Translations under genes and position numbers: made by a program
The notes under the pieces: generated by a model
What the model saw: only the letters and a program-made list of their open reading frames with translations
The model's database searches: none
Told to the model about the DNA's origin: nothing
Assembly (NCBI GenBank): GCA_003557385.1
Contig: PWON01000028.1
Coordinates: forward strand, 1-45,447
Direction of reading: 5' to 3'
Source: Bacteroidales bacterium
GTDB lineage: Bacteria; Bacteroidota; Bacteroidia; Bacteroidales; UBA7960
DNA: 45,447 nt
In this document: piece after piece, positions 1 to 15,216 of the stretch
How positions within the stretch are numbered: the first letter of the stretch is position 1
Layout: each line of letters begins with the position of its first letter

Positions 1-2427
1 AACATGGGCAGCAAATGCCGTGGCCCGGATGTTGATGCGGAAACCACCCTGGACCGCTTCAATGTCATAATGCAGGTGGCTATCCGGAAGGTTTAAATTT
101 CCGTAAGGTTCCAGGAATTTCTGGTTTTTAAAGCTTCGTCTGTCTTTTACGGTAAATACTGCTTCTACCAGGTGCCGCCTCATGTCGTATTGCGATTTGA
201 TCGTTTCCGATGCCAGGCTGGTGACTTTTACAGGGCTGTTTGCAGGCAACAACATGTCTTTTTCGTATAGGGTGATCCTGTTGTTTTCAAAATCAACAAG
301 ATGTAATTCCACACGGCCCTGCAGATCATCCAGCATGCCCGAAACCAGATATACGTCGAGCGATCTGTTATGGTCAATCACGGACACCATGATGTCGTCG
401 TACAGATCCCTTACGGTATATTGCAGGGCTTTCCAGTTGCCGTTGACATCCATTCCCGACCAGCTTGTAACCGGCCAGCAATCATTAAACTGCCAGTACA
501 AAGTTCCCATGCAGCGGGGCTGGGCTCTCCGGTGGGCTTCAATGGCCATTCCGATTCCTTTTGCCTGAATTAGCTGACTCAGATAAATATATTCCCGCAG
601 GCTTGATGGATACAGGTTTTCCCGTTCCAGGTAGGCGGTGATGGTTTCGTATCCCGTCGGGTGTTTCTGGTGGCAGCGCAGGGCATCGGAAAAAAGGCTG
701 TCTTCTTCTTCGGTTTGGAATTGCCGGATGGTGGCCAGGGCTGGCATGGCCTGGAAACCAAATTCGCTCATAAAACGCGGTACTTTTTCCAGGTACATTT
801 CAAATGGCTCGAGTCCCCACCATACACCCCAGTAATGGGCACTTCCTTCCATCATGCTTTCTTCATGACCCCAGCCATGCACGGGAGAAGTATGCAAATA
901 AAACCGTCCGGGGTCGTAGGTATTTATGACCTCTGGAAGCAATTGATGGAAGACCCTTTGATAACCTTTCCAGATGGTCGCTGAATCGGCAGGCTGTATG
1001 TTGTGCGCCGCCTGCCATTGCCAGTTGTGCCAGCCTTCATCCACCTCATTGTTGCCACACCACATGGCCAGGCAGGCATGATTTCTGAGCCGTTTTACCT
1101 GTTGGATGGCTTCCTGCCTTACATTCTCAACAAAGGCATCGTCCCCGGGATACATGGCGCAGGCAAACATAAAATCCTGCCATACCAGGATCCCGTTTTG
1201 GTCACACAATTCGTAGAATATATCGCGTTCATACATGCCGCCACCCCAAACCCGGAGCATATTCATATTTGACAGCACGGCGTTTTCTATGACCCGCTCA
1301 TAATCCTCGTCACTGACTTCGGTGACAAAGCTGTGTTGTGGTATGTAATTGGCCCCTTTCATAAACAAAGGTATCCCGTTGAGTTTAAGGTAAAGTGATT
1401 CACCGTATTGGTCATCTTCGGTGATCACTTCGATGGTACGGATGCCATATGGTATGTTCTGTTGATGTGTAAAACCGGAATGGGTTTCTATGTCAAATTG
1501 CAATGCATACAAGTGGGGGGCACCAAGGTCGTTGGTCCACCAAAGTACCGGATCCTGGATCTGAAACTCAAATGAATGGACGCTGCGTTCAGGGTTCAGT
1601 TCGATATTCTGTTTTGCATATATCCTGCCGTTTTCCCGGTCACTGACCCTGATCACTGCCTGTTCGATGATATCCGATTCAAATGTCATTTCCGTCAGGA
1701 TACGGGCCGATTTTTCCGTGATTTCTGTGGTATATAGCTGGATATCCCCCGGGCGGTGATCATCCCAGGTTTCCAGGTAAACAGGCTTATGGATGCCTGC
1801 TGTTATATAAACAGGACTCCAGTCCCATCCAAAATGATAGGCGGCCTTGCGTGCAAAAACCCATCTGCCCCCCGGAAGGGGATATCCCAGGGCCAGTGAA
1901 TCTTCCATGAACCGTTTTTCGGCCGACGAAAACCTGATTTCCAGATCGTTGTTCCCCGGTTGTAAAAATTCCCTGCAATCTGCTTCCCACTTCCTAAACA
2001 TATTATTGGCTTCCAGTAATTTACTGCCGTTCAAAAACACCTTTGCATAGGTGTCAAGCCCCTCAAACACCAAACTGATATGGGTTTTTGCCAACAGCTG
2101 CTCATCTGCATAAAAACTTTTTCTGTACACCCAGTCTTTTTGCCCGACCCACTGGAGCTCATATTCGTTACAGCCATAAAAAGGGTCGGGGATCAGTCCG
2201 TTCTTCAATAAGTCGGTATGAATGGTTCCCGGAACGGATGCAGGATACCAGGCTTCAGGACCTTCTTCTGACAGAAGAAAGGTCCAGCCTTCGGTAATGG
2301 GTATTTTTTGCAGCAGCGGTTTTTCTTCACTTGTGCAGGAGAGCATCACGATAGATAAAAGAAACAGTAACTTACCGGCCTTGTGACAAGCAATGGATAC
2401 TGGCATGAGAAGAAGTGTGTTGGTCAT
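1..2427 (-). CDS. GH2 beta-mannosidase, lipoprotein or secreted (3' end outside window)
   Basis: Glycoside hydrolase family 2, most like beta-mannosidase, which removes terminal beta-mannose. The frame stays open from an ATG at 2427 to the window edge (809 codons), so the C-terminus is missing. The N-terminus has a hydrophobic stretch ending in VMLSC near residue 31, which suggests a lipoprotein although the lipobox is not perfect. A jelly-roll sugar-binding region is followed by the TIM barrel motif NMLRVWGGGMYE (about residue 389). The acid/base motif WCGNNE places the catalytic Glu at residue 461, and FMSEFGFQ places the nucleophile Glu at 555. An in-frame ATG at 2406 is an alternative start. 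It follows the MFS gene by 45 bp on the same strand, so it is probably the last known gene of the GH20-lacI-MFS operon. Mannosidase rather than another GH2 activity is inferred from GNNE. Confidence 0.9.
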   Translation of the reverse strand, partial: MTNTLLLMPVSIACHKAGKLLFLLSIVMLSCTSEEKPLLQKIPITEGWTFLLSEEGPEAWYPASVPGTIHTDLLKNGLIPDPFYGCNEYELQWVGQKDWVYRKSFYADEQLLAKTHISLVFEGLDTYAKVFLNGSKLLEANNMFRKWEADCREFLQPGNNDLEIRFSSAEKRFMEDSLALGYPLPGGRWVFARKAAYHFGWDWSPVYITAGIHKPVYLETWDDHRPGDIQLYTTEITEKSARILTEMTFESDIIEQAVIRVSDRENGRIYAKQNIELNPERSVHSFEFQIQDPVLWWTNDLGAPHLYALQFDIETHSGFTHQQNIPYGIRTIEVITEDDQYGESLYLKLNGIPLFMKGANYIPQHSFVTEVSDEDYERVIENAVLSNMNMLRVWGGGMYERDIFYELCDQNGILVWQDFMFACAMYPGDDAFVENVRQEAIQQVKRLRNHACLAMWCGNNEVDEGWHNWQWQAAHNIQPADSATIWKGYQRVFHQLLPEVINTYDPGRFYLHTSPVHGWGHEESMMEGSAHYWGVWWGLEPFEMYLEKVPRFMSEFGFQAMPALATIRQFQTEEEDSLFSDALRCHQKHPTGYETITAYLERENLYPSSLREYIYLSQLIQAKGIGMAIEAHRRAQPRCMGTLYWQFNDCWPVTSWSGMDVNGNWKALQYTVRDLYDDIMVSVIDHNRSLDVYLVSGMLDDLQGRVELHLVDFENNRITLYEKDMLLPANSPVKVTSLASETIKSQYDMRRHLVEAVFTVKDRRSFKNQKFLEPYGNLNLPDSHLHYDIEAVQGGFRINIRATAFAAHV

Positions 2428-2472
2428 GTTTTTTTTTATGGCATATTGAAAGCATTGCATGCATGGTTCATG

Positions 2473-3651
2473 TTATCTGTTTACAGATCTTACGGCCAAC
2501 ACAAGCACATATATTATACACGCTGCAGGTACCATAAAACCCAGCAATACATTCACATCCGCTACCGCACCGGTAACAGGAGGTACAAGGGCGCCCCCGA
2601 CAATGGCTGTAACCATGAGGCCCGACAATTCATTGGCCCGTTCAGGCATTGCATCCACGGTGATTGAAAAGATCAGGGGAAAAACATTGGAAAATCCCAA
2701 TCCAACCAGGACAATGCCTGTAAAAGCAACATACTGGCTTCCGAAAAACAGCAATATCAAGCCAAGGATGGACAACAGCACGCTAAACATTAGAAAATGA
2801 CCTGCCCTGAACTTTCTGAGCAGAAAGGCACCCGCAAGCCGGCCAACGAAAATAGGCAGAAAGAACAAACCCCAGGCCAGCCAGAGTCCAAAATCAGTGA
2901 ACCCATAAACATTGGCCATCAAAATGGGTATTTTTGCACTCATGGATATTTCTGCCCCCACATAAAGGAATATCCCTGTGACCATCATCAGGACGAAGGG
3001 ATTTTTCAGCAAAGCAAAACTGGTGGAAATACTTGCGGGCCGGGCTTCCGGGGCTTTCACCTCAATGATCCTGATCGACTGCACCCAGATGAGCGTTATC
3101 ACAATGATAATGGCAAATAAAGGAAAGAGGATGGTCCAGTCGAGTCCAAACCAGATAGCTACGGCCGGAGGGATCAGAAAACCCATGGAAGAGCCGATCG
3201 CTTTGATAGACTGCCCGAGTGACAGGTTGCTGGAGTATCTGCCCGGGAGGGACACATCACGCATGATCGGGTTTCCTGCCACCTGGAGGGTGGTGGCCCC
3301 GGCACCCAGCAAAAAAATGGAAAAAAACAGGGCATACAATTTCAGGTTTGAATCGGGGTCCACTACCGTTTGGGGTCCATACATCCCAAAAAACATAGGG
3401 ATGATCAGCCCGAAAAAGGCTACGATCAAACCGACGGACAGAATATATTTTTTCCCTTTTGTGTCCTGAAACACCCCCATGGGGATCGACAGAATGCCAA
3501 ACATGATGAAGCCGCTGGTGGTCATCAGAGAAGCAACAAAGTTTGATACCTGAAAGGTGTCTTTAACCAGGGAAACCAGTGGCCCTACCACATCTCCGAA
3601 GCCCATGGCCAGGAATGCAAGAAAAATGGGAAATGCTTTGTTTCTAGTCAT
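2473..3651 (-). CDS. FucP-like sugar permease of the major facilitator superfamily
   Basis: A 392-aa inner-membrane protein of nearly continuous hydrophobic segments, consistent with about 12 membrane helices. The stretch LGAGATTLQVAGNP (about residues 115-128) resembles the conserved helix 4 region of FucP-family sugar:proton symporters, which carry fucose, glucose or N-acetylglucosamine. The loop GVFQDTKGKK after helix 2 is the usual MFS loop 2-3 position. Its ATG overlaps the lacI stop by 4 bp (3648-3651), indicating translational coupling. Flanking GH20 and GH2 genes suggest that it imports the monosaccharide or disaccharide released by those enzymes; GlcNAc, mannose or Man-GlcNAc are candidates, and the sequence alone does not decide between them. 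Confidence 0.9.
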   Translation of the reverse strand: MTRNKAFPIFLAFLAMGFGDVVGPLVSLVKDTFQVSNFVASLMTTSGFIMFGILSIPMGVFQDTKGKKYILSVGLIVAFFGLIIPMFFGMYGPQTVVDPDSNLKLYALFFSIFLLGAGATTLQVAGNPIMRDVSLPGRYSSNLSLGQSIKAIGSSMGFLIPPAVAIWFGLDWTILFPLFAIIIVITLIWVQSIRIIEVKAPEARPASISTSFALLKNPFVLMMVTGIFLYVGAEISMSAKIPILMANVYGFTDFGLWLAWGLFFLPIFVGRLAGAFLLRKFRAGHFLMFSVLLSILGLILLFFGSQYVAFTGIVLVGLGFSNVFPLIFSITVDAMPERANELSGLMVTAIVGGALVPPVTGAVADVNVLLGFMVPAACIIYVLVLAVRSVNR

Positions 3652-4688
3652 GATTTTGAGGGTTTTATTGATGATTCTCTGATGATAATGTCTACAGGGA
3701 GCACCACAGAATGATGCTTTTTTGCAATGCTCTCTTTATTGATTTGTTTCAGCAACAGCTTAAAGGCTTGTTCGCTGATCAGGTCGATGGGTTGTTTGAT
3801 CACGGATACCGATGGTTTTGTGAACCCGAAGTAAAATACGTCATCAAAGCCAATAATGGCTACTTCATCGGGGATGCTGACCGATAATTTTGCCAGGTAT
3901 TTCAGGCATGTGGAAGTAAGATTGTTGTTCAGTGTAAACATGGCTTCTGGGATGTCTCCTTCCTGGTAAAACGATTGCAGTTTGACCCTGACCACTTCGT
4001 CGATCTTGTCAAAAGGCGCCCTGATCAACCATTTCGGGGGGATTTTGATTCCTGCTTCCATAAGGGTTTTTTCAAATCCCATGATGCGGTCGTTGATGGT
4101 GGATATATGATCGGGCGAAATGGCCACAACCGAAAATTTCCTGATGCCCTGTTTCAGCAGATGACGGGCCGCCATCCGTGCCCCGCCAACATTGTCGACG
4201 GATACATTTGCCGATTTCATTCCCTTAAAGGTCCTGTCGATCAGCACATGCGGCAATCCGGACGCAGCCAGTTCATCAAAAAACGAGCTGTTTTCCTGCG
4301 AAGTGGAGATGATCATTCCATCTACCTTCCTTTCTTTCAGGAAACGGATTTGTTCTTTCTCTTTTTCGATGATTTCATCGGTGCTGCATATGACCACATT
4401 ATATCCGTGATTCCAGGCAAAATCTTCAATATTCCTGGCGATCCGTGCATAAAAGCGGTTGGAAATGTCCGAAACAATCAGTCCGATGGTGTTGGTTATG
4501 CCCATTCTGAACCCGCGGGCCAGCACATTGGGCTCATAATTCATTTCCCTGATCTTTTCCAGGACCTTTTCCTGGGTCTCCTTGCGGATGCCGTGTGCAT
4601 CGCCCTTGCCGTTTATGACGAGCGAGACCAGGGTTTTTGATACCCCAAGGCTCTTTGCAATGTCGGCCAGTGTTACTTTTCCTGACAT
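3648..4688 (-). CDS. LacI-family transcriptional regulator
   Basis: A 346-aa LacI/GalR-type regulator. The N-terminal helix-turn-helix covers about residues 5-50 (VTLADIAKSLGVSKTLVSL), followed by the hinge region PNVLARGFRMG. The residue that is usually the minor-groove leucine of the hinge helix is Phe here. The periplasmic-binding-protein-like effector domain starts at NTIGLIVSDISNRFYA and contains DRTF and FNNN-like sugar-pocket regions. The C-terminus is complete (DIIIRESS). It lies 12 bp after the GH20 gene and overlaps the permease gene, so it is within the operon it probably controls. Palindromes with a central CG at 7089-7100 and 11565-11578 fit the LacI operator type. The effector is probably a released sugar; this is not shown by the sequence. 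Confidence 0.95.
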   Translation of the reverse strand: MSGKVTLADIAKSLGVSKTLVSLVINGKGDAHGIRKETQEKVLEKIREMNYEPNVLARGFRMGITNTIGLIVSDISNRFYARIARNIEDFAWNHGYNVVICSTDEIIEKEKEQIRFLKERKVDGMIISTSQENSSFFDELAASGLPHVLIDRTFKGMKSANVSVDNVGGARMAARHLLKQGIRKFSVVAISPDHISTINDRIMGFEKTLMEAGIKIPPKWLIRAPFDKIDEVVRVKLQSFYQEGDIPEAMFTLNNNLTSTCLKYLAKLSVSIPDEVAIIGFDDVFYFGFTKPSVSVIKQPIDLISEQAFKLLLKQINKESIAKKHHSVVLPVDIIIRESSIKPSKS

Positions 4689-4700
4689 ATGGATGTTTTA

Positions 4701-7031
4701 TTATTCTACCATGATTTCGCTTACAAAAAGCCATGCGGGATTGCCTTCGCCGGAATGGCCTGGTGGGCAAACACCAAGGTTCTCTGCACGGATACGCACG
4801 TATCGCATGTTTTCTATTGCAATATGCGTGGAAAAACTGTGAATGATCCTGCCCATCTCGTAAGGTGAGATAGCATTTTCCACTGTTTCCAGCAAAATGA
4901 ATTGTTCCCCGTCGTCCGACACTTCAAAATGGACCCTGTGTGGCAAGAATATCCATGAGGCCACTGTCTGAAGTGCCTCTACCTGAATGCTGCTGATATT
5001 TGTGGGCTCACCAAGGTCAATAAGCGCGATCAGGTCATCGCCGCGAAAACCCTTCCAGTTACCGTCTGAATGACTTTTTGTGCCACGTACCCCGTTCACA
5101 AGGCTGTATTTGCCATGACCATCGTATTGGGGGCTGCTGGGATGCTCCAACTGAACGTCTGCCGCAAAGGCTTTATGTATATGGTATTCCCTTGCAAAAA
5201 CCTGTTCCGTGGATTTTCCGTTTTGGAATACGGCCGCTTTCAGCGTGCCGGTTTCACCAATCTCTATTGGTTTTCTGTAGACCGGCGACTGCTTGCCGGG
5301 CAAGCTTCCGTCGAGGGTATAACGGATTTCGGGATCGTAAACTTCCGAGTCCAGTTTTAGGAGCAGTTTTCTGCTCTCAGGATCAATTTCCGGACTTGCC
5401 GTCACCTGGAATGCGCTCAGGGAATAATTGATACCAAGTTGTTCATATATATGATACTGGGTCTTCATCCGCCTGGAAAAATCGCCCCAGTGACGCAACC
5501 GGGCCGGTGTCCACAACACTTCCGATAACGCGGCCAGCCTTGGAAAAACCATGTATTCAACATGTTCGGGTACAGGCATATACTCTGTCCATACGTTGGC
5601 CTGGGCGCCCAGTATCAGCCGGGCTTCTTCTTCATTGAGTGTATCAGGCACCGGTTCGTATGAATATACTTTTGCCAGGGTTGTATAACCGCCAATGGCC
5701 AGGGGTTCAATGGCAGGATCTCCCTGGTAATGGTCGAAGTAACAATAACTTCCGGGAGTCATCACCACTGTGTGGCCCATTTTGGCCGCTTCGATGCCCC
5801 CCTGTTCGCCACGCCACGACATAACCGTGGCGTTGGGTGCCAGGCCCCCTTCAAGGATTTCATCCCAGCCGATCAGTTGTCGCCCGTGGGCGTTAAGGAA
5901 TCGTTCTATCCGCCGGATAAAGTAGCTTTGCAGTTGCTCTTCATCTTTCAGGCCTTCTGCCTCCATGCGCGCCTGGCATTTTACACAGGTTTTCCAGTTT
6001 GATTTGTCTGCTTCATCGCCACCGATATGGATATAGGTGGAGGGGAACATGTCCATAACTTCTGTAAGCACATCTTTAAGAAACAGAAATGTGCTGTCGT
6101 TTCCCGCACAATAAATGTGTGTAATGGGCCATACACCTCCCGGTGGTACACCAAGGTTTTTGCCTGTACAGGAAAACTCCGGATAGGCTGCCAGGGCAGA
6201 CATCACATGTGCCGGCATTTCAATCTCCGGCATCACGGCAATATGTCTTTCGGCTGCATATTGAACCAGTGCCCTGATTTCTTCCTGTGTGTAATAACCA
6301 CCATAGGTGGCATTGTCCGGATCGTTGATAAGGGGTCTTTCGTTCCAGTGCACATCGGGCATATCAACCCGCCAGGCACCTGTTTCAGTCAACCCGGGAT
6401 ATTTTTTGATCTCCAGGCGCCACCCCTGGTCATCAATCAGATGCCAGTGAAATACATTCAGTTTATGCAGGGCCATATAATCGATCATTTTGTAAATGAA
6501 TTCAATGGGCATAAAGTGCCTGGAAACATCCAGGTGCATGCCACGGTAGCCGAAACGCGGGTAATCGATGATGCTTGCAGCGGACAGTTCTGCTTTGTCG
6601 CTGGCTGCAAGCAGTTTGTAAACCGTTTGGATCCCGTAAAACAAACCTGCCCGGGTATTGGCAGAAAGGAATATTCTTTCGGACTGGATGTCAAGCATGT
6701 AGCCTTCGGTTCCGAGGTCCGGGGAGTTGGGTTGTTCAATGGCCAGAAAAACGGCTTTGTCGATCCGGCCATATTTTATTTGCTCTACCGGCATCCAGAA
6801 TCCGAGCGGGGAGGCCCAGTAATCTGAGGCGAATTCAGCAAGTTTGCTGATATCTTCTCCGTGAAATACAATGGGAATGTCCGTGTCAAAGTAAAATATT
6901 CCTTCAGTTTTTTCAACATGCGCAGGCCGGGGAATGATCTCCGGATCGTTGGTTGCAACAGCCTGCAGGCTTGTGCATAATGAGAGCATAATGGCCAGGG
7001 CAATCAACATGTTGCAATATTCTTTAATCAT
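4701..7031 (-). CDS. GH20 beta-N-acetylhexosaminidase, secreted
   Basis: A 776-aa family 20 glycoside hydrolase that removes terminal GlcNAc or GalNAc by substrate-assisted catalysis. It has an N-terminal signal peptide (about residues 1-25, core MLIALAIMLSL), a GH20b-type N-domain, then the catalytic barrel beginning near YRGMHLDVSRHFMP. HIGGDEADK contains the catalytic Asp339-Glu340 pair. After the barrel there is a chitobiase-like C-terminal segment (YTLDGSLPGKQSP) and a discoidin/F5-8C-like domain near residues 640-776 (LIALIDLGEPTNISSIQVEAL, shortened), probably for carbohydrate binding. It is the first gene of the operon GH20-lacI-MFS-GH2. The start at 7031 is followed by a second ATG seven codons in (MLIALA), which would also leave a good signal peptide. 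Confidence 0.95.
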   Translation of the reverse strand: MIKEYCNMLIALAIMLSLCTSLQAVATNDPEIIPRPAHVEKTEGIFYFDTDIPIVFHGEDISKLAEFASDYWASPLGFWMPVEQIKYGRIDKAVFLAIEQPNSPDLGTEGYMLDIQSERIFLSANTRAGLFYGIQTVYKLLAASDKAELSAASIIDYPRFGYRGMHLDVSRHFMPIEFIYKMIDYMALHKLNVFHWHLIDDQGWRLEIKKYPGLTETGAWRVDMPDVHWNERPLINDPDNATYGGYYTQEEIRALVQYAAERHIAVMPEIEMPAHVMSALAAYPEFSCTGKNLGVPPGGVWPITHIYCAGNDSTFLFLKDVLTEVMDMFPSTYIHIGGDEADKSNWKTCVKCQARMEAEGLKDEEQLQSYFIRRIERFLNAHGRQLIGWDEILEGGLAPNATVMSWRGEQGGIEAAKMGHTVVMTPGSYCYFDHYQGDPAIEPLAIGGYTTLAKVYSYEPVPDTLNEEEARLILGAQANVWTEYMPVPEHVEYMVFPRLAALSEVLWTPARLRHWGDFSRRMKTQYHIYEQLGINYSLSAFQVTASPEIDPESRKLLLKLDSEVYDPEIRYTLDGSLPGKQSPVYRKPIEIGETGTLKAAVFQNGKSTEQVFAREYHIHKAFAADVQLEHPSSPQYDGHGKYSLVNGVRGTKSHSDGNWKGFRGDDLIALIDLGEPTNISSIQVEALQTVASWIFLPHRVHFEVSDDGEQFILLETVENAISPYEMGRIIHSFSTHIAIENMRYVRIRAENLGVCPPGHSGEGNPAWLFVSEIMVE

Positions 7032-7076: not shown

Positions 7077-7084
7077 TATTTTTG
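7077..7084 (+). promoter_or_regulatory. Bacteroidota -7 promoter element for the 7139 hydrolase gene
   Basis: TATTTTTG matches the Bacteroidota -7 consensus TAnnTTTG. No good -33 TTG is at the expected distance (19-21 bp). The predicted transcription start, about 7091, falls inside the LacI-type palindrome, which fits direct repression. Confidence 0.45.
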
Positions 7085-7088
7085 TGGC

Positions 7089-7100
7089 TAAATCGATTTA
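7089..7100. promoter_or_regulatory. Putative LacI-family operator, divergent GH20/hydrolase promoter region
   Basis: A perfect 12-bp palindrome, TAAATCGATTTA, with the central CG typical of LacI-family operators. It is just downstream of the -7 box at 7077-7084 and 58 bp upstream of the GH20 start on the other strand, so it could serve both directions. A copy differing by one base is at 11566-11577 in front of the symporter gene. That the LacI protein at 3648-4688 binds it is inference. Confidence 0.6.
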
Positions 7101-7138
7101 CTTCGCAAGATAAAAATATTTTTCAAACAGACAGATCA

Positions 7139-9658
7139 ATGATGCGACCCTGCATTCTGAAAAGCCTGGTGTTGCTTGCAGCTTTGCAGTTTTTGACCTT
7201 TTTTCATCTCCAGGCCCAACGGACCGGAAATATTGTCGAAATATTCGGCCGCGACCGGGTGGAAACCACCAGTGAGGGTTTGATCATACATGAGTTTTCG
7301 GAAGGGATGGCCTTGCGGGAAGCCATGCGCCCGGGCATGCTTACCGGGATGCAGGACATTCTTTTCTGGCAACTGGCCACCGGCCGTTTTGAGCAACCTG
7401 AAAGCGGGAAATACCTTGCCGATAATTATGCAGAGAATCCCGTACCGCTTGTTTGGGAAGAGATTGTAGTGAATCAGGAGGGTGTATTTACCGGGGATCT
7501 GGGCAGGGCTTACATTTACACAAGCTTTGAATCACCCGAAGAACGGATTGCGCTTTTGGATGCCTCGGGTCACACCAGGGTTTTTATTAATGGGATGCCC
7601 GGCGAAGGAGACCATTATGATTATGCCCACACGTTGATCCCATTCCGTTTAAACAAAGGATTGAATGAATTTGTATATACATATGGCCGCTTTGGGAGAC
7701 TGGTTTCAAGGATTGTGATCCCGCACCGGGAGGTTCAGTTTTCGGACCGTGACATGACCCTGCCGTCAATCATCCGTGGTGAACAGGATGATACATGGGG
7801 GGGCGTCCGGGTGGTGAACGCCTCCGAAAACCTTCATAACGGTCTGCATATTGAGTGTGTATTGGAAACCGGGGAAAGGGCAAAGATTCAAACAGGCCAT
7901 ATCATTCCGATGGCTGTACGAAAATTGCCGTTTAAAATACCTGCCCCGCTGATGCCGGTTTTGGCCGATACGTTGGCCGCAGATCTCTTTTTGACGGATG
8001 GATCGGGTCAACTCATTGATCAGATGTCCATAGTTATCAATGTGATGGACCACAACCGCCATCATGAAAGGACCTTTGTGAGCAACATTGATGGAAGTGT
8101 TCAGTATTACAGTGTGGCCCCATCCACTTCAGATGCAGAAAACCAGGCATTCATTTTGTCGGTTCATGGTGCTTCGGTTGAAGCCACCAACCAGACAAGG
8201 GCCTATAAGCAAAAAGACTGGGGCCATATCGTAGCTCCCACCAACAGGCGCCCATTTGGGTTTAACTGGGAAGAGTGGGGCCGCATTGATGCCCTGGAAG
8301 TATTGCATGAAGCAAGAAAAATTTTCCATACGGACACGGCACGGACGTACATTACGGGCCATTCGATGGGCGGACACGGAACCTGGTTCCTGGGTGCCAC
8401 ATATCCGGATAAATTTGCTGCCATAGCTCCTGCTGCAGGTTATCCGGATATCATTGGGTACAGGCGCACCGGGACCGACAGCCTGATCCAGGCAAATCCG
8501 CACTTCGAGATGATATACCGCGGCGCCCTTCCGGGACGGACCCTTGACCTGGCAAGGAATTACCTTCAATCGGGGGTGTATGTGTTGCACGGAGATGCCG
8601 ACGCAGTGGTGCCGGTTGAACAGGCCAGGCTTATGCGCAAATTGCTGGGCGGATTCCACAACAATTTTTCCTATTACGAATATCCCGGCGGATCGCACTG
8701 GTATGGTGATCACAGCATGGACTGGCCCCCGCTTTTCGATTTCCTGCAACAAAACACCATCCCCCAACCACATGAGGTGTTTGATATAGAGTTTTCAACG
8801 GCTTCACCGGGGGTTTCGGCAAGCAATTACTGGTTGCGCATCAATCAGCAGCAAATCCCTTACAAACAATCTTCTGTGAAGGCAAACCGGCGACTGGACA
8901 CTATATTCATCGAGACGGACAACATTGAACATATCACGTTGTTTGTTCACAAAATGTGCATGGATACACCGCCTGTAATATGCATTGATGCTCAATATAT
9001 TGTTGCAGAAAACAACCAGGAGGTCAACCTGGTTTTACAGGGGGAAAAGTGGTCCCTGGCCGATATGCCTGCGGCTTCGGAAAAGTATCCCGGCCGGTAT
9101 GGCGGGTTCAAACTGGCTTTTGACAACCACATGCTTTTTGTATATGCCACCGGAGGCACGGATGAGGAAAATCAATGGTACAAAAACAAAGCCCGTTTCG
9201 ATGCCGAAACTTTCCTTTACAGGGGGAATGGTTCCGTTGACATTATTCCCGACACGGATTTTGATCTGCAAAAATATCCCGACCGAAACGTGATTGTATA
9301 TGGCAATGCGGAAAACCACCAGTTCTGGGAGATATTGCTCTCCCAGTCGCCGGTAAAGGTGTTCCGGGATGGGATACAGTTCGGGAATATGTTTTTTCCC
9401 GGCGATGACCTTGGCACCTATTTTATTTATCCGCGCCCTGATAGCAAAACCGGCAGCGTTGGTGTTGTGGCGGGTACCGGTAAACCCGGTATGAAAGCGA
9501 TTTATGGCAACGATTATTTTTCAGGCATTACAGGGTTTCCTGATTTGCTGATCTTTGATGCCGGCTGGATCAGGGATGGAACTGAGGGGATCAGGGTTTC
9601 CGGATTTTTTGGCAATGACTGGAGTATTGACCGGGGTGATTTCAGGATAAGCCAATAA
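7139..9658 (+). CDS. Secreted alpha/beta hydrolase, prolyl-oligopeptidase-like
   Basis: An 839-aa exported serine hydrolase with an S9/esterase-type core. The start is placed at the ATG at 7139 (another ATG follows at 7142) because the signal peptide begins there and because the longer TTG reading frame from 7082 would cover the promoter and operator. The core has the nucleophile elbow GHSMGGHG (Ser409), HGDADAVVP (Asp488) and GGSHWYGDH (His520), a complete catalytic triad in the expected order. About 330 residues before and 300 after the core show no family that I recognise; both look beta-rich and may bind substrate. It is divergent from the glycan operon and shares the putative LacI operator, so it may remove ester groups or peptides from the same glycoconjugate. 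Peptidase versus esterase activity is undecided. Confidence 0.82.
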   Translation: MMRPCILKSLVLLAALQFLTFFHLQAQRTGNIVEIFGRDRVETTSEGLIIHEFSEGMALREAMRPGMLTGMQDILFWQLATGRFEQPESGKYLADNYAENPVPLVWEEIVVNQEGVFTGDLGRAYIYTSFESPEERIALLDASGHTRVFINGMPGEGDHYDYAHTLIPFRLNKGLNEFVYTYGRFGRLVSRIVIPHREVQFSDRDMTLPSIIRGEQDDTWGGVRVVNASENLHNGLHIECVLETGERAKIQTGHIIPMAVRKLPFKIPAPLMPVLADTLAADLFLTDGSGQLIDQMSIVINVMDHNRHHERTFVSNIDGSVQYYSVAPSTSDAENQAFILSVHGASVEATNQTRAYKQKDWGHIVAPTNRRPFGFNWEEWGRIDALEVLHEARKIFHTDTARTYITGHSMGGHGTWFLGATYPDKFAAIAPAAGYPDIIGYRRTGTDSLIQANPHFEMIYRGALPGRTLDLARNYLQSGVYVLHGDADAVVPVEQARLMRKLLGGFHNNFSYYEYPGGSHWYGDHSMDWPPLFDFLQQNTIPQPHEVFDIEFSTASPGVSASNYWLRINQQQIPYKQSSVKANRRLDTIFIETDNIEHITLFVHKMCMDTPPVICIDAQYIVAENNQEVNLVLQGEKWSLADMPAASEKYPGRYGGFKLAFDNHMLFVYATGGTDEENQWYKNKARFDAETFLYRGNGSVDIIPDTDFDLQKYPDRNVIVYGNAENHQFWEILLSQSPVKVFRDGIQFGNMFFPGDDLGTYFIYPRPDSKTGSVGVVAGTGKPGMKAIYGNDYFSGITGFPDLLIFDAGWIRDGTEGIRVSGFFGNDWSIDRGDFRISQ

Positions 9659-9673
9659 ATGCAGATATCCGCC

Positions 9674-11476
9674 TTATTTGACCACGGCCTCCCATCCTGT
9701 TTTTTGCAGCTGAATGTAAACTACAACAGCTGCAATGGCAGCGATGCCCAGATAAAGCATGCCCGAAAGATAATCGGCAAAGATCAGCTTGCCGGTTCCG
9801 AACAAGCTGAAAAGCACCATGATACATCCACTCACATAACTGATAAACAAAGACCGGTAACCGGTGTCCCCTTTTACATGGGGCATTTGTGCGGCAATGT
9901 TTTTCCATCCGGCCCCCCCCGGGTGCACCCTTTCATAAAAATCTTGCAGGGTTTTCGTTTCGGTGGGTTTGGTTAAAAACGTGGTGATCAGCCATACCAG
10001 GCTTGACCATACCACAATAATGATCAGTATGGTTTCATAATTTAACCCGTATCTGTAAACAAGTATGGGATATATGGCATAAGGAGCGATCATGGCGGCA
10101 ATTTCCGACCAGGCATTGATACGCCACCAGAACCACCGCAACAGCAAAACAAGGCCAATCCCACCGCTGCAAGCGAGGATAAAGCGCCATGCGTCGCTGA
10201 TCATATTGAATTGTGTGGTCACGATGAGCGAAAACACCATCAGCAGCACGGTGGTTATCCTGGAGACTTTCACATAATATCTTTCATTGGCCCCGGGCCT
10301 GATAAACGGCCGGAACAGGTCGTTGATCACATAAGAGGTTCCCCAGACTGTCTGGGAAGCCATTGTGGACATATAGGCGGCAAAAAATGCAGCCATCAAC
10401 AGGCCCAGCAGCCCGGTGGGAAGCAGGTCGCGTATCACCATGACATATGTTGCCCCCTTGTCGGCTTCATTCGGGTACATTACCAGCGCAGCCAGGGCTA
10501 CGATGATCCATGGCCATGGCCGGATGGCAAAATGTGCCACCTGGAACCACAATGTAGCCAGCAGCGAGTGCTTTTCATCTTTGGCCGACATCATCCGCTG
10601 GGCCACATAACCACCACCTCCAGGTTCGGCACCAGGATACCAGCTGGCCCACCATTGAACACCAAGATATGCCACCAGGGCCACCACACTCATCTTAAGC
10701 ATGCCTGTGGCGGAAACAGAGGCCTCACCGCCTTCCACCACAGGGAAAAAATCAAAAACCCAGCCTACGTCAGCAAGCTGTTCCTGTAATCCGGCAACAC
10801 CCCCAACGTGGTTCAGGGCCACAAAAGCCAGTATTATACTGCCACCCATGGCAATGATAAATTGGAAAGTGTCGGTAATGGATACGCCCCATAGTCCCGA
10901 AAGTGCTGTATAAAGCGCTACAAAGGCCATCATCCCACCAACGGCCAGCAAATGTGCACTGAAGGTAATGCCGAGGACCTGGATTTCCTGCACACCAAAC
11001 AGGCTGAGGCCGGGGAACATTACCTGCAGGATCTTGACCATGGCCAGGTTTACCCAGGCCATTACGATGGCATTCATAAACAGGCCTATATATATTGCGC
11101 GAAAGCCCCTTAAAAACCTTGCTTCCATGCCGGAATACCTGATCGAAACGAATTCTGCATCGGTCATGATGTTTGCCCGGCGCCATAAGCGTGCGAAAAA
11201 AAACACGGTAAGCATCCCGCCAAATAACATATTCCACCACAGCCAGTTACCGCTTATCCCACTTTGTGCCACCAGTTCAGTAACCGCCAGGGGGGTGTCG
11301 GCTGCAAATGTTGTGGCCACCATGCTTGTCCCGGCAATATACCAGGGCAGGTTCCGCCCGGTAAGGAAAAAATCGCTGGTGCTCCGGCTGGCTCGCTTCG
11401 ACATATAAATGCTGATCCCGATGCTGATCAGCAAAAATGCCCCGATGACCATCCAGTCAATATAATGAATATACAT
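9674..11476 (-). CDS. Sodium:solute symporter family (SSS) transporter
   Basis: A 600-aa inner-membrane protein with about 13-14 hydrophobic helices. The N-terminus (GISIYMSKRASRSTSDFF, followed by LTGRNLPWY) and TTFAADTPLAVTELV are typical of sodium-coupled SSS symporters of the sugar/sialic-acid branch. Length is normal for the bacterial family. The gene is convergent with the hydrolase (15 bp between stops) and has its own promoter. A palindrome at 11565-11578 in its promoter region almost equals the one between the GH20 and hydrolase genes, so it probably belongs to the same LacI regulon and may import a sugar set free by these enzymes. The substrate cannot be read from the sequence. Confidence 0.93.
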   Translation of the reverse strand: MYIHYIDWMVIGAFLLISIGISIYMSKRASRSTSDFFLTGRNLPWYIAGTSMVATTFAADTPLAVTELVAQSGISGNWLWWNMLFGGMLTVFFFARLWRRANIMTDAEFVSIRYSGMEARFLRGFRAIYIGLFMNAIVMAWVNLAMVKILQVMFPGLSLFGVQEIQVLGITFSAHLLAVGGMMAFVALYTALSGLWGVSITDTFQFIIAMGGSIILAFVALNHVGGVAGLQEQLADVGWVFDFFPVVEGGEASVSATGMLKMSVVALVAYLGVQWWASWYPGAEPGGGGYVAQRMMSAKDEKHSLLATLWFQVAHFAIRPWPWIIVALAALVMYPNEADKGATYVMVIRDLLPTGLLGLLMAAFFAAYMSTMASQTVWGTSYVINDLFRPFIRPGANERYYVKVSRITTVLLMVFSLIVTTQFNMISDAWRFILACSGGIGLVLLLRWFWWRINAWSEIAAMIAPYAIYPILVYRYGLNYETILIIIVVWSSLVWLITTFLTKPTETKTLQDFYERVHPGGAGWKNIAAQMPHVKGDTGYRSLFISYVSGCIMVLFSLFGTGKLIFADYLSGMLYLGIAAIAAVVVYIQLQKTGWEAVVK

Positions 11477-11535
11477 ATGATTCAGTTTTTCAGGATATTA
11501 CAAGTGTGTTTCGTTGCCCGGGCAAACAGAGGGTT

Positions 11536-11543
11536 CAAAATTA
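11536..11543 (-). promoter_or_regulatory. -7 promoter element of the symporter gene
   Basis: On the minus strand this reads TAATTTTG, matching TAnnTTTG, 60 bp before the symporter ATG. No TTG is found about 20 bp further upstream; that position is occupied by the LacI-type palindrome at 11565-11578. Confidence 0.4.
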
Positions 11544-11564
11544 AAAAAAAATGTGATTCAGAGA

Positions 11565-11578
11565 CTAAATCGTTTTAG
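11565..11578. promoter_or_regulatory. Putative LacI-family operator upstream of the symporter
   Basis: CTAAATCGTTTTAG is a 14-bp palindrome with one mismatched pair and a central CG. Its inner 12 bases differ from the site at 7089-7100 by one base. It covers the -33 zone of the putative symporter promoter, a position suited to repression. Confidence 0.6.
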
Positions 11579-11644
11579 CCTATTGTGTGTGATTTTAAAC
11601 ACTAATTATGTATGATTCCTAAACATTGGTGGACACCAATAAAT

Positions 11645-11668
11645 AATGATCATTTATTCGTATTTTTG
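11645..11668 (+). promoter_or_regulatory. Promoter region of the 11711 lipoprotein gene with short palindrome
   Basis: TATTTTTG at 11661-11668 matches the Bacteroidota -7 consensus, and a start near 11675 would give a leader of about 36 nt. No TTG is at the right distance. The 10-bp palindrome AATGATCATT (11645-11654) lies directly upstream of the -7 box and may be an operator. Confidence 0.4.
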
Positions 11669-11710
11669 CGGAATAATCGAAGTTATTAATGAATACTTAA
11701 GCAGACATTT

Positions 11711-12178
11711 ATGAAAAAGTTATTCTTGTTATTTGCCGCCGGGCTGATTATTACCGCCTGCGGGGGTCCTGCCACAGATGAAGCGGCCCGGGAGGTCATC
11801 GAGACTCATGCCATTGCGGAATTGGTTGAACAACCCATTGACTATGAAGGAAAGACTGTCAGGCTGGAAGGTGTAATCGACCATATGTGCCGCCACAGTG
11901 GTGATAAAATGCGTGTTGCGTCTACCGATGATGAACCCGTGAGCATCCAGGTGCGCCTCGGCGATTTTATGAACCAGTTTAGTGTGGAACTCGAGGGTAG
12001 TGAAGTGGCTGTTACAGGCAGGCTGATGATTGAAGTGATGAATATGGAAGAACTTGAACAGCATGACGAAGGGCACGATTGTGAATCGACCGAAGAAGCC
12101 ATTGCATTGATGGCCGAACGGGGCATAGATCCCAACATCAGGCCTTATTTGGAGTTACAGGCGTTTGAGATCAAATAA
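11711..12178 (+). CDS. Small lipoprotein with OB-fold-like domain
   Basis: A 155-aa lipoprotein: the signal sequence ends in the lipobox ITAC (Cys near residue 17), so the protein is probably membrane-anchored outside the cytoplasm. The rest has the pattern of a small OB-fold beta barrel (YEGKTVRLEGVIDHMC ... VAVTGRLMIEVM). CRHSGDKM in the middle and the HDEGHDCE segment near residue 115 bring Cys, His and acidic residues together that could bind metal. I do not recognise a precise family; it is somewhat like DUF4920/tRNA-anti-like lipoproteins. It is followed by a strong terminator and then by a PepSY-type membrane protein gene. Function unknown. Confidence 0.8.
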   Translation: MKKLFLLFAAGLIITACGGPATDEAAREVIETHAIAELVEQPIDYEGKTVRLEGVIDHMCRHSGDKMRVASTDDEPVSIQVRLGDFMNQFSVELEGSEVAVTGRLMIEVMNMEELEQHDEGHDCESTEEAIALMAERGIDPNIRPYLELQAFEIK

Positions 12179-12197
12179 ATTACGCATGTTACAACGA

Positions 12198-12229
12198 AAC
12201 TGCCGGAAAAAAACATTCCGGCAGTTTTT
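12198..12229 (+). terminator. Intrinsic terminator after the OB-fold lipoprotein gene
   Basis: An 11-bp perfect stem, AACTGCCGGAA / TTCCGGCAGTT, with a 7-nt A-rich loop, followed by a T run (12225-12229). It starts 20 bp after the lipoprotein stop and ends 11 bp before the ATG of the PepSY gene. The A-rich loop and the nearness of the next start leave open a role as an attenuator. Confidence 0.85.
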
Positions 12230-12240
12230 GATTCTTGATC

Positions 12241-12798
12241 ATGAAGCTCAGAAAATATAACCGTGCCATCCATCGTGACCTGGGATATTTCTTTTTCGGG
12301 ATGTGCATCATTTACGGCCTGTCAGGCATTGCACTCAATCACCGGCATGAGTGGAACCCAAATTATATCATCACGCAAAAGGACTTTCAGCTGCAAGCGC
12401 CCCAACAGGAAATCACCGACAACCGGGAGGCGGCCATGCACTTTCTGACACAGCTGGAAAGACAGGATGAATTTCGCACCAGCCTGCGCAGCGGCGACAA
12501 CCTCCGCATATTCATCAGGGATGGCAGCATGACAGTAAACATTTATACTGGCCAGGGAGAATTGGAAACCATACGTCCAAGACCTGTTTTCCGTGAGGTC
12601 AATTTTTTGCATTACAATACCCCACGAAGGTTATGGACTTGGTTTTCTGATTTTTATGCCGGAGGACTTATCATAATGGCCATTACGGGCTTGTTTATCC
12701 TGCGGGGCAAAAACGGGATCAGGGGCCGTGGGGCCTGGTTGACCGCTGCAGGCATCATGATACCCCTGATATTGCTTTACTATTATCTTAATGGCTAA
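12241..12798 (+). CDS. PepSY-associated membrane protein
   Basis: A 185-aa membrane protein of the PepSY-associated TM type. The N-terminus KLRKYNRAIHRDLGYFF is followed by a first helix (FGMCIIYGLSGIALNH) and the conserved NHRHEWNP. A soluble middle part is followed by LHYNTPRRLWTWFSDFYAGGL, two more helices and a short tail. The protein has the pattern of short PepSY-TM proteins linked to iron or redox systems in Bacteroidota. The ATG at 12241 is chosen over an upstream TTG (12235). The start lies 11 bp after the terminator hairpin, so expression may depend on read-through. The pairing with the OB-fold lipoprotein may be functional, for instance in metal or heme handling; this is inference. 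Confidence 0.82.
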   Translation: MKLRKYNRAIHRDLGYFFFGMCIIYGLSGIALNHRHEWNPNYIITQKDFQLQAPQQEITDNREAAMHFLTQLERQDEFRTSLRSGDNLRIFIRDGSMTVNIYTGQGELETIRPRPVFREVNFLHYNTPRRLWTWFSDFYAGGLIIMAITGLFILRGKNGIRGRGAWLTAAGIMIPLILLYYYLNG

Positions 12799-12817
12799 AA
12801 ACAGCATTGACACGACG

Positions 12818-13426
12818 TCAGTGGGGTATATCGGCAATCCTGGCAAAATGGTTCAGGAGGGAAAAAATTTCTTTGGCCATGGGTTTGGTTACATCATACA
12901 AAGCCAGGTAGTTGCGTCGCACTTCATTCATTAATGCCAGACCGGGTTTCTCATTCCGCATATTGGCCAGGATCAGCGTGGCGAGTCCGGTTCGTAAAGG
13001 ATTGCCTTTTAAACGCCTGGTGTGTTTTGAATATCTGGCGGGATGTATGTGAATATAGAATTCTTCTGAATCCCCTTTGCGCATGGTCCATTCTGAGTGA
13101 TCAGATATGCTCAGTTGCCAGAACAACTGGGGAGAACTTTCTATCCATCGGTAATACGAATCCAGGGTATAAGCCCGGAATCCCTTGAGTGTTTCGGTCA
13201 GGTCATTGGCTATTTCTTCGGGCGGCATGCTCCCTGTATACATGTCAAATTGAGAATCCCCAAGCATTTTTAATTTGGCTATGCACAGGGGGAAGGTTCT
13301 TTCATCAGCACCTGCCCATTTCTGAATCTGTGAAACAAGGAAACCCTGATGGTGTTTCCATCCATTCAGAATAACAGGCGCCGGTGTACAGCTTTTCCCC
13401 TTTAATGCCACCACAGAATTCATCAT
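12818..13426 (-). CDS. Uncharacterised protein, about 202 aa
   Basis: I do not recognise a family. The start is set at the ATG at 13426 (a second ATG is at 13423) because a good promoter lies just upstream at 13444-13474; a longer frame from 13516 would run through that promoter. The protein is soluble without signal peptide or membrane helices. It has several tryptophans and a striking segment YIHIHPARYSKHTRRLKGN (about residues 123-141) and a C-terminal basic helix with LMNEVRRNYLALYDVTKP. The His/Arg-rich segment looks like a binding or active site. It is divergent from ettA and convergent with the PepSY gene (19 bp apart). Its composition and codon use look like a real gene. Confidence 0.75.
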   Translation of the reverse strand: MMNSVVALKGKSCTPAPVILNGWKHHQGFLVSQIQKWAGADERTFPLCIAKLKMLGDSQFDMYTGSMPPEEIANDLTETLKGFRAYTLDSYYRWIESSPQLFWQLSISDHSEWTMRKGDSEEFYIHIHPARYSKHTRRLKGNPLRTGLATLILANMRNEKPGLALMNEVRRNYLALYDVTKPMAKEIFSLLNHFARIADIPH

Positions 13427-13443
13427 GTATGTTTTTAATGCTA

Positions 13444-13474
13444 CAAATATAAGGCATTGACTTAAAAAGCTCAA
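13444..13474 (-). promoter_or_regulatory. Promoter of the 12818-13426 gene
   Basis: On the minus strand TTG (13472-13474) is followed after 20 bp by TATATTTG (13444-13451), an excellent match to the Bacteroidota consensus TTG-N19-21-TAnnTTTG. The expected start near 13437 gives a leader of about 10 nt before the ATG at 13426 and supports that start. Confidence 0.75.
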
Positions 13475-13533
13475 TTTTCTGTGGATAACAAACGATTTTT
13501 TCAGACATTTGTACAAATTCCGAAAAATATACC

Positions 13534-15216
13534 ATGAGTGACGATAAAAAGATCATTTTTTCAATGGTCGGGGTAAGCAAGGTATTTCCACCCGGAAACA
13601 AACAGGTGCTGAAGGACATCTACCTCTCTTTTTTTTATGGGGCCAAAATCGGCATCATAGGGTTGAACGGGTCGGGCAAATCCACCCTGATGCGCATCAT
13701 TGCCGGCGAGGAAAAATCGTACCAGGGAAAAGTGGCCTTTTCACCCGGTTATTCCATCGGTTATTTGCCCCAGGAACCTGTTCTTGATCCCGGAAAAACG
13801 GTAAAGGAAATTGTACAGGAAGGGGTGCAGGAGGTGGTGGATATCTTAAAGGAGTATGAAGCGGTAAATCTTCGATTTGCCGAACCCCTGGATGATAATC
13901 AAATGGCTGAATTGATTGATCGTCAGGGCGAATTATCTGACCTGATTGAACAACGGGGCGGGTGGGAGTTGGATTCGCGTCTTGAGCGTGCGATGGATGC
14001 ATTGCGTTGTCCTGATCCTGATGAACCCATTGCCCACCTGAGTGGTGGCGAACATCGCCGGGTGGCTTTGTGCCGGTTGCTTTTGCAGGAGCCCGACATT
14101 CTTTTGCTTGATGAGCCAACCAACCATCTGGATGCCGAAAGTGTCGAGTGGCTCGAACAGCATCTGAAACAATACAAAGGGACGGTGATCGCCATCACCC
14201 ATGACAGGTACTTTCTCGACAATGCGGCCGGGTGGATCCTGGAACTCGAGAGGGGAGAGGGCATTCCCTGGAAGGGCAATTATTCCTCGTGGCTGGAACA
14301 AAAAGCCAGGCGTCTGGAAATAGAAGAACGGTCGGAAAGCAAACGGCGAAAAACCCTGGAACGGGAACTTGAGTGGGTGCGGATGTCTCCCAAAGCGCGC
14401 CAGGCTAAAGGGAAGGCAAGACTGAATGCCTATGAACGGATGTTGGGTGAAGACGTCAAACAAAAAGAGGAGCGGTTGGAAATTTTTATTCCACATGGCC
14501 CCAGGCTGGGCAATAAGGTCATTGAGGCAGTAGACCTGAGCAAGGCTTTTGGGGACAAACTTCTGTTCAGTGACCTGGATTTTTCACTTCCCCCGGCTGG
14601 CATTGTGGGCATCATTGGACCAAATGGCGCCGGCAAAACCACTTTGTTTCGCATGATCATGGGCCAGGAAAAAGCCGACGGCGGACGTTTTGATATAGGG
14701 GAAACGGTAAGCATCGGATATGTGGATCAGGCACATGCCGGCATTGATCCCGAAAAAAGTGTTTGGGAGGTGATTTCCGGGGGAAATGAGATAATCAGAT
14801 TATCCGGCCGGCAAATGAACAGCCGTGCCTACGTGGCCCGTTTCAATTTCACCGGACCGGACCAGGGCAAAAAGTGCGGGGTGCTATCGGGAGGTGAAAG
14901 AAACCGCCTGCATCTGGCCATGACCCTTAAAAGCGAGGCCAATGTGCTGTTGCTTGATGAGCCCACCAATGATATCGACGTGAATACACTGAGGGCCCTG
15001 GAAGAAGGTCTTGAACACTTTGCAGGATGCGCTGTGATCATTACGCACGATCGATGGTTCTTAGACAGGGTGGCCACACACATCCTGGCTTTTGAGGGCG
15101 ACTCCCGGGTCTGTTTTTTTGAAGGTGGGTATACCGATTATGAGGAAAACCGCCGTAAAAGGCTTGGAAATACTGGACTGGGGAGGATTAAGTATAGGAG
15201 AATTAGTAAGAAGTAA
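13534..15216 (+). CDS. ettA: ABC-F protein, energy-dependent translational throttle EttA
   Basis: A 560-aa cytoplasmic ABC-F ATPase that binds the ribosomal E site and tunes translation to the ATP/ADP ratio. It has two ATPase domains in one chain and no membrane part. Domain 1: Walker A GLNGSGKST (residues 43-51), signature LSGGEHRR, Walker B ILLLDEPTNHLD. Domain 2: GPNGAGKTT, LSGGERNR, VLLLDEPTNDID. The length and the C-terminal pattern RIKYRRI match the EttA subfamily (about 555 aa). The arm and linker region with RMSPKARQAKGKARL is present. The last codons (ISKK, stop) lie in a short AT-rich repeat that continues towards the transketolase gene. Confidence 0.95.
   Translation: MSDDKKIIFSMVGVSKVFPPGNKQVLKDIYLSFFYGAKIGIIGLNGSGKSTLMRIIAGEEKSYQGKVAFSPGYSIGYLPQEPVLDPGKTVKEIVQEGVQEVVDILKEYEAVNLRFAEPLDDNQMAELIDRQGELSDLIEQRGGWELDSRLERAMDALRCPDPDEPIAHLSGGEHRRVALCRLLLQEPDILLLDEPTNHLDAESVEWLEQHLKQYKGTVIAITHDRYFLDNAAGWILELERGEGIPWKGNYSSWLEQKARRLEIEERSESKRRKTLERELEWVRMSPKARQAKGKARLNAYERMLGEDVKQKEERLEIFIPHGPRLGNKVIEAVDLSKAFGDKLLFSDLDFSLPPAGIVGIIGPNGAGKTTLFRMIMGQEKADGGRFDIGETVSIGYVDQAHAGIDPEKSVWEVISGGNEIIRLSGRQMNSRAYVARFNFTGPDQGKKCGVLSGGERNRLHLAMTLKSEANVLLLDEPTNDIDVNTLRALEEGLEHFAGCAVIITHDRWFLDRVATHILAFEGDSRVCFFEGGYTDYEENRRKRLGNTGLGRIKYRRISKK

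Follow-up and report, generated by a model that had tools for sequence, protein, structure and literature searches.

Probable LacI-Type Operators of a Glycan-Use Regulon in a Bacteroidales Genome

We analyzed a 45,447-nucleotide stretch of DNA (the window), positions 1 to 45,447 of contig PWON01000028.1, from a Bacteroidales genome (GCA_003557385.1; UBA7960). It contains a gene for a LacI-family regulator, P0001, and two near-identical palindromes, operators 1 and 2. The palindromes are very probably docking sites of this neighboring LacI-type repressor. We put a probability of about 0.82 on the following reading: both are operators of P0001, operator 1 would block a GH20-lacI-MFS-GH2 operon and a divergent serine hydrolase gene, a sugar from N-glycans would release the block, and operator 2 would add a sodium symporter gene in this line. 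An initial annotation of the window had already proposed LacI operators of a glycan regulon. Phylogenetic footprinting, co-occurrence of motif and regulator, and a paralogue control strongly support that proposal at the level of sequence comparison. For site 1 and the operon-hydrolase pair, the operator reading is well supported.

Sequence and genomic occurrence of the palindromes

The near-identity reported in the initial annotation holds: the 12-mers TAAATCGATTTA (7089-7100) and TAAATCGTTTTA (11566-11577) differ at a single base. One more base on each side gives the 14-mers used here.

7088..7101, no strand: operator 1, CTAAATCGATTTAC, between divergent gene starts
11565..11578, no strand: operator 2, CTAAATCGTTTTAG, upstream of the symporter gene

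The 14-mer pattern is CTAAATCGWTTTAS, also written CTAAATCG[A/T]TTTA[C/G], and the palindrome core is CTAAAnCGnTTTAG. Operator 2 is the better palindrome of the two. Both are even palindromes with a central CG, as expected of LacI-family operators. In the window and its relatives, predicted sites stand before lacI or before the first gene of its operon, and autoregulation is predicted.

The pattern CTAAATCGWTTTAS occurs twice in the window and in none of 100 dinucleotide shuffles. The whole assembly (2.13 Mb in 247 contigs, 80% complete) contains only these two perfect matches. Both are at promoters and less than 7 kb from lacI. A third genomic copy of the 12-mer, at C118:18312, lies within a 653-codon open frame. 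The genome-wide scan that the initial annotation had called for was extended to matches with two or fewer mismatches. It returned 14 forward and 9 reverse matches (23, including the perfect ones), compared with 17 and 18 (35) for the reversed control pattern. The weaker matches are therefore background. A chance palindrome was rejected for site 1 on the basis of the shuffles, the genome scan, and the footprint at related lacI loci. For site 2 it is unlikely.

Conservation among relatives

A set of 118 genomes includes 47 from the family of the window (G000 to G046). P0001 orthologues with 57 to 76% identity are encoded in 12 other family genomes of the set, and relatives with 40 to 43% identity are found in five other families. 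In G021 only a fragment of the regulator (45%) is present, at the edge of a contig, and this genome was scored as regulator-less. Seventeen of 19 such regulator genes have CTAAAnCGnTTTAG with 0 or 1 mismatch within 200 bp upstream (L070 is a contig-edge fragment). Of the other two, L065 has a two-mismatch form only and L068 has none. L064 has a near copy with one mismatch and an exact copy 604 bp away.

The same footprint was found in a larger sample of 80 loci, those of the 80 best-ranked among 193 relatives from named genomes, which include some of the G-numbered genomes. In the 200 bp upstream of lacI, 47 of the 80 loci have an exact CTAAAnCGnTTTAG, and 58 have a copy with at most one mismatch. 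The means for 200 shuffled sets were 0.0 and 0.1. P0001 has Phe at a hinge position where Leu is usual. Among the 33 loci of this Phe-hinge clade, 26 have the palindrome (at most one mismatch) at lacI. L186 to L188 have the one-mismatch form GTAAATCGATTTAG before a GH20 gene that heads the lacI operon, with the 14-mer and arrangement of the window. Operator loss at these three loci was dismissed on that finding.

Motif and regulator also occur together. Eleven of 13 family genomes with an orthologue contain the exact 14-mer, as do 2 of 34 without (Fisher P = 3e-7), which corresponds to 27 and 2 copies, respectively. Across these 47 genomes the reversed control pattern was found 16 times, including 3 times in the 13 regulator-bearing ones. 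In the two regulator-bearing exceptions, G010 and G020, sites with one mismatch occupy the expected positions. Some motif copies look like chance occurrences, lying inside genes (L093, L115, L117, and one in L066) or before unrelated genes (L107 and L113).

No copy of the motif was found within 250 bp of any of 20 paralogous lacI genes, where the best matches had 4 or 5 mismatches. These 20 were selected from a longer list, 19 from 12 regulator-bearing family genomes and 1 from G070. It is very improbable that another regulator binds the palindromes and that their closeness to lacI is incidental. The genome does encode a second LacI-family gene, and LacI-family operators are mostly CG-centered palindromes (PMC4052901). 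Against this, the second LacI has a different perfect palindrome of its own, CCGCAAACGTTTGCGG, which also stands before a related gene (L275), and motif presence tracks P0001 orthologues, not other LacI genes. The second LacI was ruled out as the binder because CCGCAAACGTTTGCGG is unlike the CTAAATCG sites.

The second LacI gene itself (L261, G000:C118:10603-11598) has this 16-bp palindrome about 154 bp upstream. A SusC-like gene (C118:9522-10340) adjoins it. L261 and CCGCAAACGTTTGCGG probably form another local regulon.

Genes and the divergent promoter at operator 1

The genes around the two sites are as follows.

1..2460, minus strand: GH2 beta-mannosidase gene (by homology), the last operon gene visible, cut by the window edge
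2473..3651, minus strand: MFS sugar transporter gene, FucP/GluP-like, below curated cutoffs
3648..4688, minus strand: lacI-family regulator gene encoding P0001 (346 amino acids), by domain matches
4701..7031, minus strand: GH20 beta-hexosaminidase gene, which heads the operon; best solved relatives are beta-hexosaminidases
7139..9658, plus strand: serine hydrolase/esterase gene (839 amino acids), divergent from the GH20 operon
9674..11476, minus strand: sodium:solute symporter (SSF) gene, by family match

These identities agree with those first assigned (GH20, LacI, MFS, GH2, serine hydrolase, and sodium:solute symporter). The best solved relatives of the GH2 protein are beta-mannosidases (2vjx, E = 3e-189). 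P0001 matches PF00356 at 41.7 bits (cutoff, 27) and PF13377 at 91.2 bits (cutoff, 26.5). Since it has both a helix-turn-helix domain and a periplasmic-binding-protein-like sensor domain, its LacI-family membership stands despite the hinge Phe. No operator was found directly before the lacI gene of the window, where the best match in 200 bp upstream has 4 mismatches.

The 839-amino-acid hydrolase has only partial esterase-family matches, and its best solved relative is LC-Est1C over 136 residues. A second genome set was used for the hydrolase and symporter searches (47 in all, of which the 29 genomes G000 to G028 belong to the family of the window). The hydrolase occurs in 7 of these 47 genomes, 6 of them regulator-bearing.

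Bacteroides promoters have the -7 box consensus TAnnTTTG (PMC7366714). Three such boxes or box-like elements were found near the two sites.

7077..7084, plus strand: -7 box TATTTTTG of the hydrolase gene, separated from operator 1 by 3 bp
7105..7112, minus strand: -7-like box TATCTTGC (equal to GCAAGATA on the plus strand) of the GH20 operon, likewise separated from operator 1 by 3 bp
11536..11543, minus strand: candidate -7 box TAATTTTG of the symporter gene, a match to TAnnTTTG

Site 1 thus has the form TATTTTTG-N3-CTAAATCGATTTAC-N3-GCAAGATA. The hydrolase box TATTTTTG matches the sigma-ABfr consensus TAnnTTTG, and the GH20 side has the variant TATCTTGC. This two-way element is intact in four of seven readable regulator-bearing genomes (that of the window, G012, G010, and G025), and a fifth, G020, has one 4-bp spacer. 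The operator center in G025 is CA. The remaining hydrolase copies lack the start or upstream sequence and are unreadable for the element. The regulator-less genome G017 has no element at its hydrolase start. A single dimer on site 1 would span both presumed start sites, and the conserved two-way promoter suggests a way for one dimer to shut two genes simultaneously.

Boxes also accompany the operators at other genes. For 46 of the 47 exact lacI operators (L220 was left out), the box starts 18 to 25 bp downstream of the operator start in 29 cases, compared with 4% at random positions; 8 have a box elsewhere and 9 have none. Eight SusC, two ROK, and one MFS promoter have the box at 21 to 23 bp from the operator start. 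The initial annotation had both sites overlapping promoter elements. This is borne out at site 1, where boxes flank the operator at 3 bp on either side. It is weaker at site 2, where the nearest box starts 35 bp away.

Gene content and probable substrate

That the operon and the hydrolase gene belong together is supported by the two-way promoter, kept in most though not all readable relatives, and by the recurrence of the same gene set in relatives. The hydrolase is present in all 6 regulator-bearing genomes and in 1 of 23 regulator-less genomes among the 29 family members. That one is G017, in which an MFS gene adjoins the hydrolase gene; no regulator was detected in this genome, and there is no operator between the two genes. 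The comparison supports the operon and the divergent hydrolase gene as a probable single unit. The initial annotation had counted the symporter gene in the same unit. The palindrome is present before it, but none of the 22 other symporter homologues has one, so that here it would be a lineage-specific addition, a relict, or a chance copy.

In relatives, the operator precedes seven orthologous SusC/SusD pairs (L098, L099, L103, L105, L106, L109, and L112). All seven of these SusC genes share the 14-mer of operator 2 upstream. The operator is also found before GH20 genes, SusC-like genes (L101 and L104), ROK kinase genes (L108 and L111), and an MFS-ROK pair (L110). "Local," as the regulon was first called, is too narrow a word, since in relatives the operator also occurs on other contigs, ahead of SusC/SusD and kinase genes.

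The regulator neighborhoods of the 33 Phe-clade loci, some of them short contigs, contain genes for MFS (21), GH92 (20), ROK (18), GH2 (12), GH29 (8), SusC (5), PNGase F (4), the hydrolase (3), and GH95 (3). A GH20 catalytic region is near the regulator in 16 of the 33. A count of 23 for GH20 was discarded as too high because it included weak matches to a tail domain common to GH92. Of the 13 family genomes with the regulator, 6 encode PNGase-F-type domains, compared with none of the 34 without it (P = 1.6e-4). They are also found in 20 genomes of other families. The genes for GH92, beta-mannosidase, fucosidase, and PNGase F near the regulator in relatives point to probable N-glycan use. The window encodes two N-glycan-core enzymes, GH20 and beta-mannosidase, and GH92 and PNGase F stand beside the regulator in relatives only. 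The operon, hydrolase, and symporter genes include no SusC/SusD pair, the mark of a polysaccharide utilization locus (PUL).

Proposed mechanism

From the conserved sites, the co-occurrence of regulator and motif, the promoter geometry, and the enzyme families we infer binding, repression rather than activation, an inducer, an N-glycan substrate, and an action of operator 2, as follows. Without inducer, a dimer of P0001 (3648-4688) would sit on operator 1, 3 bp downstream of both divergent -7 boxes. Both the GH20-lacI-MFS-GH2 operon and the serine hydrolase gene would then be blocked simultaneously at transcription start. P0001 would also repress itself, because lacI lies inside the repressed operon. 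A sugar from N-glycans, likely a mannose- or N-acetylglucosamine-containing mono- or disaccharide, would free the DNA. Operator 2 would add the sodium symporter gene to the regulon in the line of the window genome only.

P0001 is unlikely to act as an activator or dual regulator from these sites. The operator position does vary: it directly follows the -7 boxes at site 1 and lies about 22 bp upstream of the box start at lacI and SusC and 35 bp upstream at the symporter. Repression is the best fit to a site that closely follows the -7 box in both directions, and most LacI-family members bind DNA ligand-free (PMC4052901).

Several findings weigh against the repressor model. No exact site stands before lacI in 33 of the 80 loci. 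At three of the 33 Phe-clade loci (L168, L169, and L181), neither lacI nor the rest of the locus shows an operator, and the L185 sequence breaks off within GH20. Two family genomes, G007 and G042, hold the motif with no regulator detected, and at least two motif copies precede unrelated genes in regulator-bearing genomes (L107 and L113). At the hydrolase gene, L179 has only the hydrolase half of the two-way element (TATCTTTG-N3-operator) and L173 has no element. In the genome of the window, PNGase F had no match (the assembly is 80% complete), the single GH92 gene is located elsewhere with no operator nearby, and a SusC/SusD partner was not found, the best SusC matches in the assembly being 35 to 43%. 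For these reasons the substrate was deduced from the gene sets of relatives.

The loci of the close regulators L168 and L169 retain GH29-GH20-GH92 genes. An altered operator is possible there.

The symporter gene and operator 2

The remaining points against the model concern the symporter gene. Its nearest TAnnTTTG box starts 35 bp downstream of the operator 2 start. Symporter homologues number 23 in the 47 genomes of the second set, and none of the other 22 has the operator within 300 bp upstream. The 22 include those of the regulator-bearing G010 and G020 and that of G018 at 93% identity; the G010 gene (L123) has 221 bp of upstream sequence only. Membership of the symporter gene in the regulon is therefore lineage-specific or doubtful.

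Operator 2 is about 90 bp from the symporter start and 7 kb from lacI. The intergenic region between the symporter and DUF4920 genes (11477-11710) is 85 bp longer than in the sister genome G018. Its DUF4920 promoter side aligns with G018, and its symporter side does not. It seems that the symporter gene recently gained an operator in the line of the window or that site 2 is a relict.

A possible, if doubtful, alternative is that only operator 1 is true and that operator 2 is a chance or relict copy that does not control the symporter gene, for example a remnant of a PUL promoter that once stood beside the DUF4920 gene and was lost or moved. The absence of the site before the other 22 homologues, regulator-bearing genomes included, speaks for it. 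G018 keeps the SSF-DUF4920-PepSY-ABCF order at 82 to 94% identity with no operator. The operator-bearing SusC/SusD genes of G012 end about 4.5 kb from the DUF4920 gene. The distance from operator 2 to the symporter -7 box is unusual. Read as CTAAATCGTTTTAG, the SusC-promoter form, site 2 points to DUF4920 and away from the symporter gene, an orientation that may be irrelevant to a bound dimer. On the other side, operator 2 is the better palindrome, and its 14-mer is identical to that before all seven orthologous SusC genes. The 34 regulator-less family genomes contain 2 background copies of the motif, which makes it unlikely that chance placed one 90 bp from a transporter start and 7 kb from lacI.

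The SSF-DUF4920-PepSY-ABCF order occupies 9674-15216 in the window. The hydrolase gene of G017 and the operator-bearing SusC/SusD genes of G012 adjoin or lie near the DUF4920 gene, so glycan genes recur at this spot.

The hinge residue

4509..4511, minus strand: codon for F60 of the hinge, the residue that aligns with the hinge Leu of CcpA

Leu54 of PurR intercalates at the operator center. The hinge Leu of CcpA does the same (PMC5809078). The hinge Leu is usual, not universal, in the LacI family. The initial annotation had noted Phe in its place in P0001, and this is correct (F60, codon 4511-4509).

In a tree of 85 regulators, which retained the hinge column and in which the bootstrap is not fully settled, a single well-supported branch separates the 34 Phe rows from the rest. 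All 51 others have Leu. The tree places one Leu/Phe change, with the direction set from the paralogue rows. The exact operator stands before lacI in 26 of 47 Leu-hinge loci, and a Phe hinge as the cause of operator specificity was ruled out on this count. Because Leu-hinged relatives keep the same palindrome, the Phe is a single clade-specific change with no change of DNA specificity. A link between the Phe hinge and this operator is not supported. With the operator unchanged, the single Leu/Phe change amounts to a natural experiment on DNA kinking by the LacI hinge.

Hinge residue R58 is replaced by Gln in nine regulators (L170, L177, L180, L181, L185 to L188, and L191). Seven of the nine have the operator before lacI or GH20 (L181 does not, and L185 is cut). 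The replacement was ruled out as a reason for operator loss, as L170, L177, L180, and L191 combine Gln with an exact operator.

We tentatively offer a wider scenario, itself rather doubtful. A LacI branch may have changed its hinge from Leu to Phe once while CTAAAnCGnTTTAG stayed fixed, and it may command N-glycan scavenging across free-living Bacteroidales. One operator might lock two divergent sigma-ABfr promoters from a symmetric position at both starts. The wedge of the Phe ring might kink the central CG and alter affinity or induction, not sequence choice.

Comparison with known systems

No report of this regulon was recognized by title among the matches listed from the open-license literature. 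A search with the motif string and LacI gave, among the matches listed, only titles unrelated to it. With no description found, the regulon is apparently undescribed; the repressor kind and the system kind are well known. For uncultured and free-living Bacteroidales it supplies an operator and a set of targets, both open to testing, for a LacI regulator that probably serves N-glycan use.

The N-glycan loci of gut Bacteroides, with their PNGase, GH92, GH29, and SusC/D sets, resemble the gene set of the relatives. They differ in that neither main text names a LacI regulator (term count, 0) (PMC9522356, PMC10154615). Bacteroides loci for alpha-mannan (N-glycan core) are assigned to two-component hybrids (HTCS) and the GntR-type ManR, not to LacI (PMC3878776). 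The Bacteroides regulators KdgR, UxaR, UxmR, and UxuR are likewise LacI-family regulators of sugar use in Bacteroidales, but they serve uronate pathways (PMC3878776). CcpA and PurR are the solved structures closest to P0001. Their domain makeup is alike by sequence, and P0001 differs from them by Phe at the hinge Leu position.

The closest known systems are the local sugar regulons of the LacI family described by Ravcheev et al. in 2014. There, 1,173 of 1,303 transcription factors have an even palindrome with a central CG, autoregulation is found, and the site is mostly 30 to 140 bp before the start codon (PMC4052901). The regulon proposed here would share the even CG-centered palindrome, the local regulon, autoregulation, and the site position with them. 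It differs in the core CTAAAnCGnTTTAG of a Bacteroidales clade, the hinge Phe, and the N-glycan-type enzymes.

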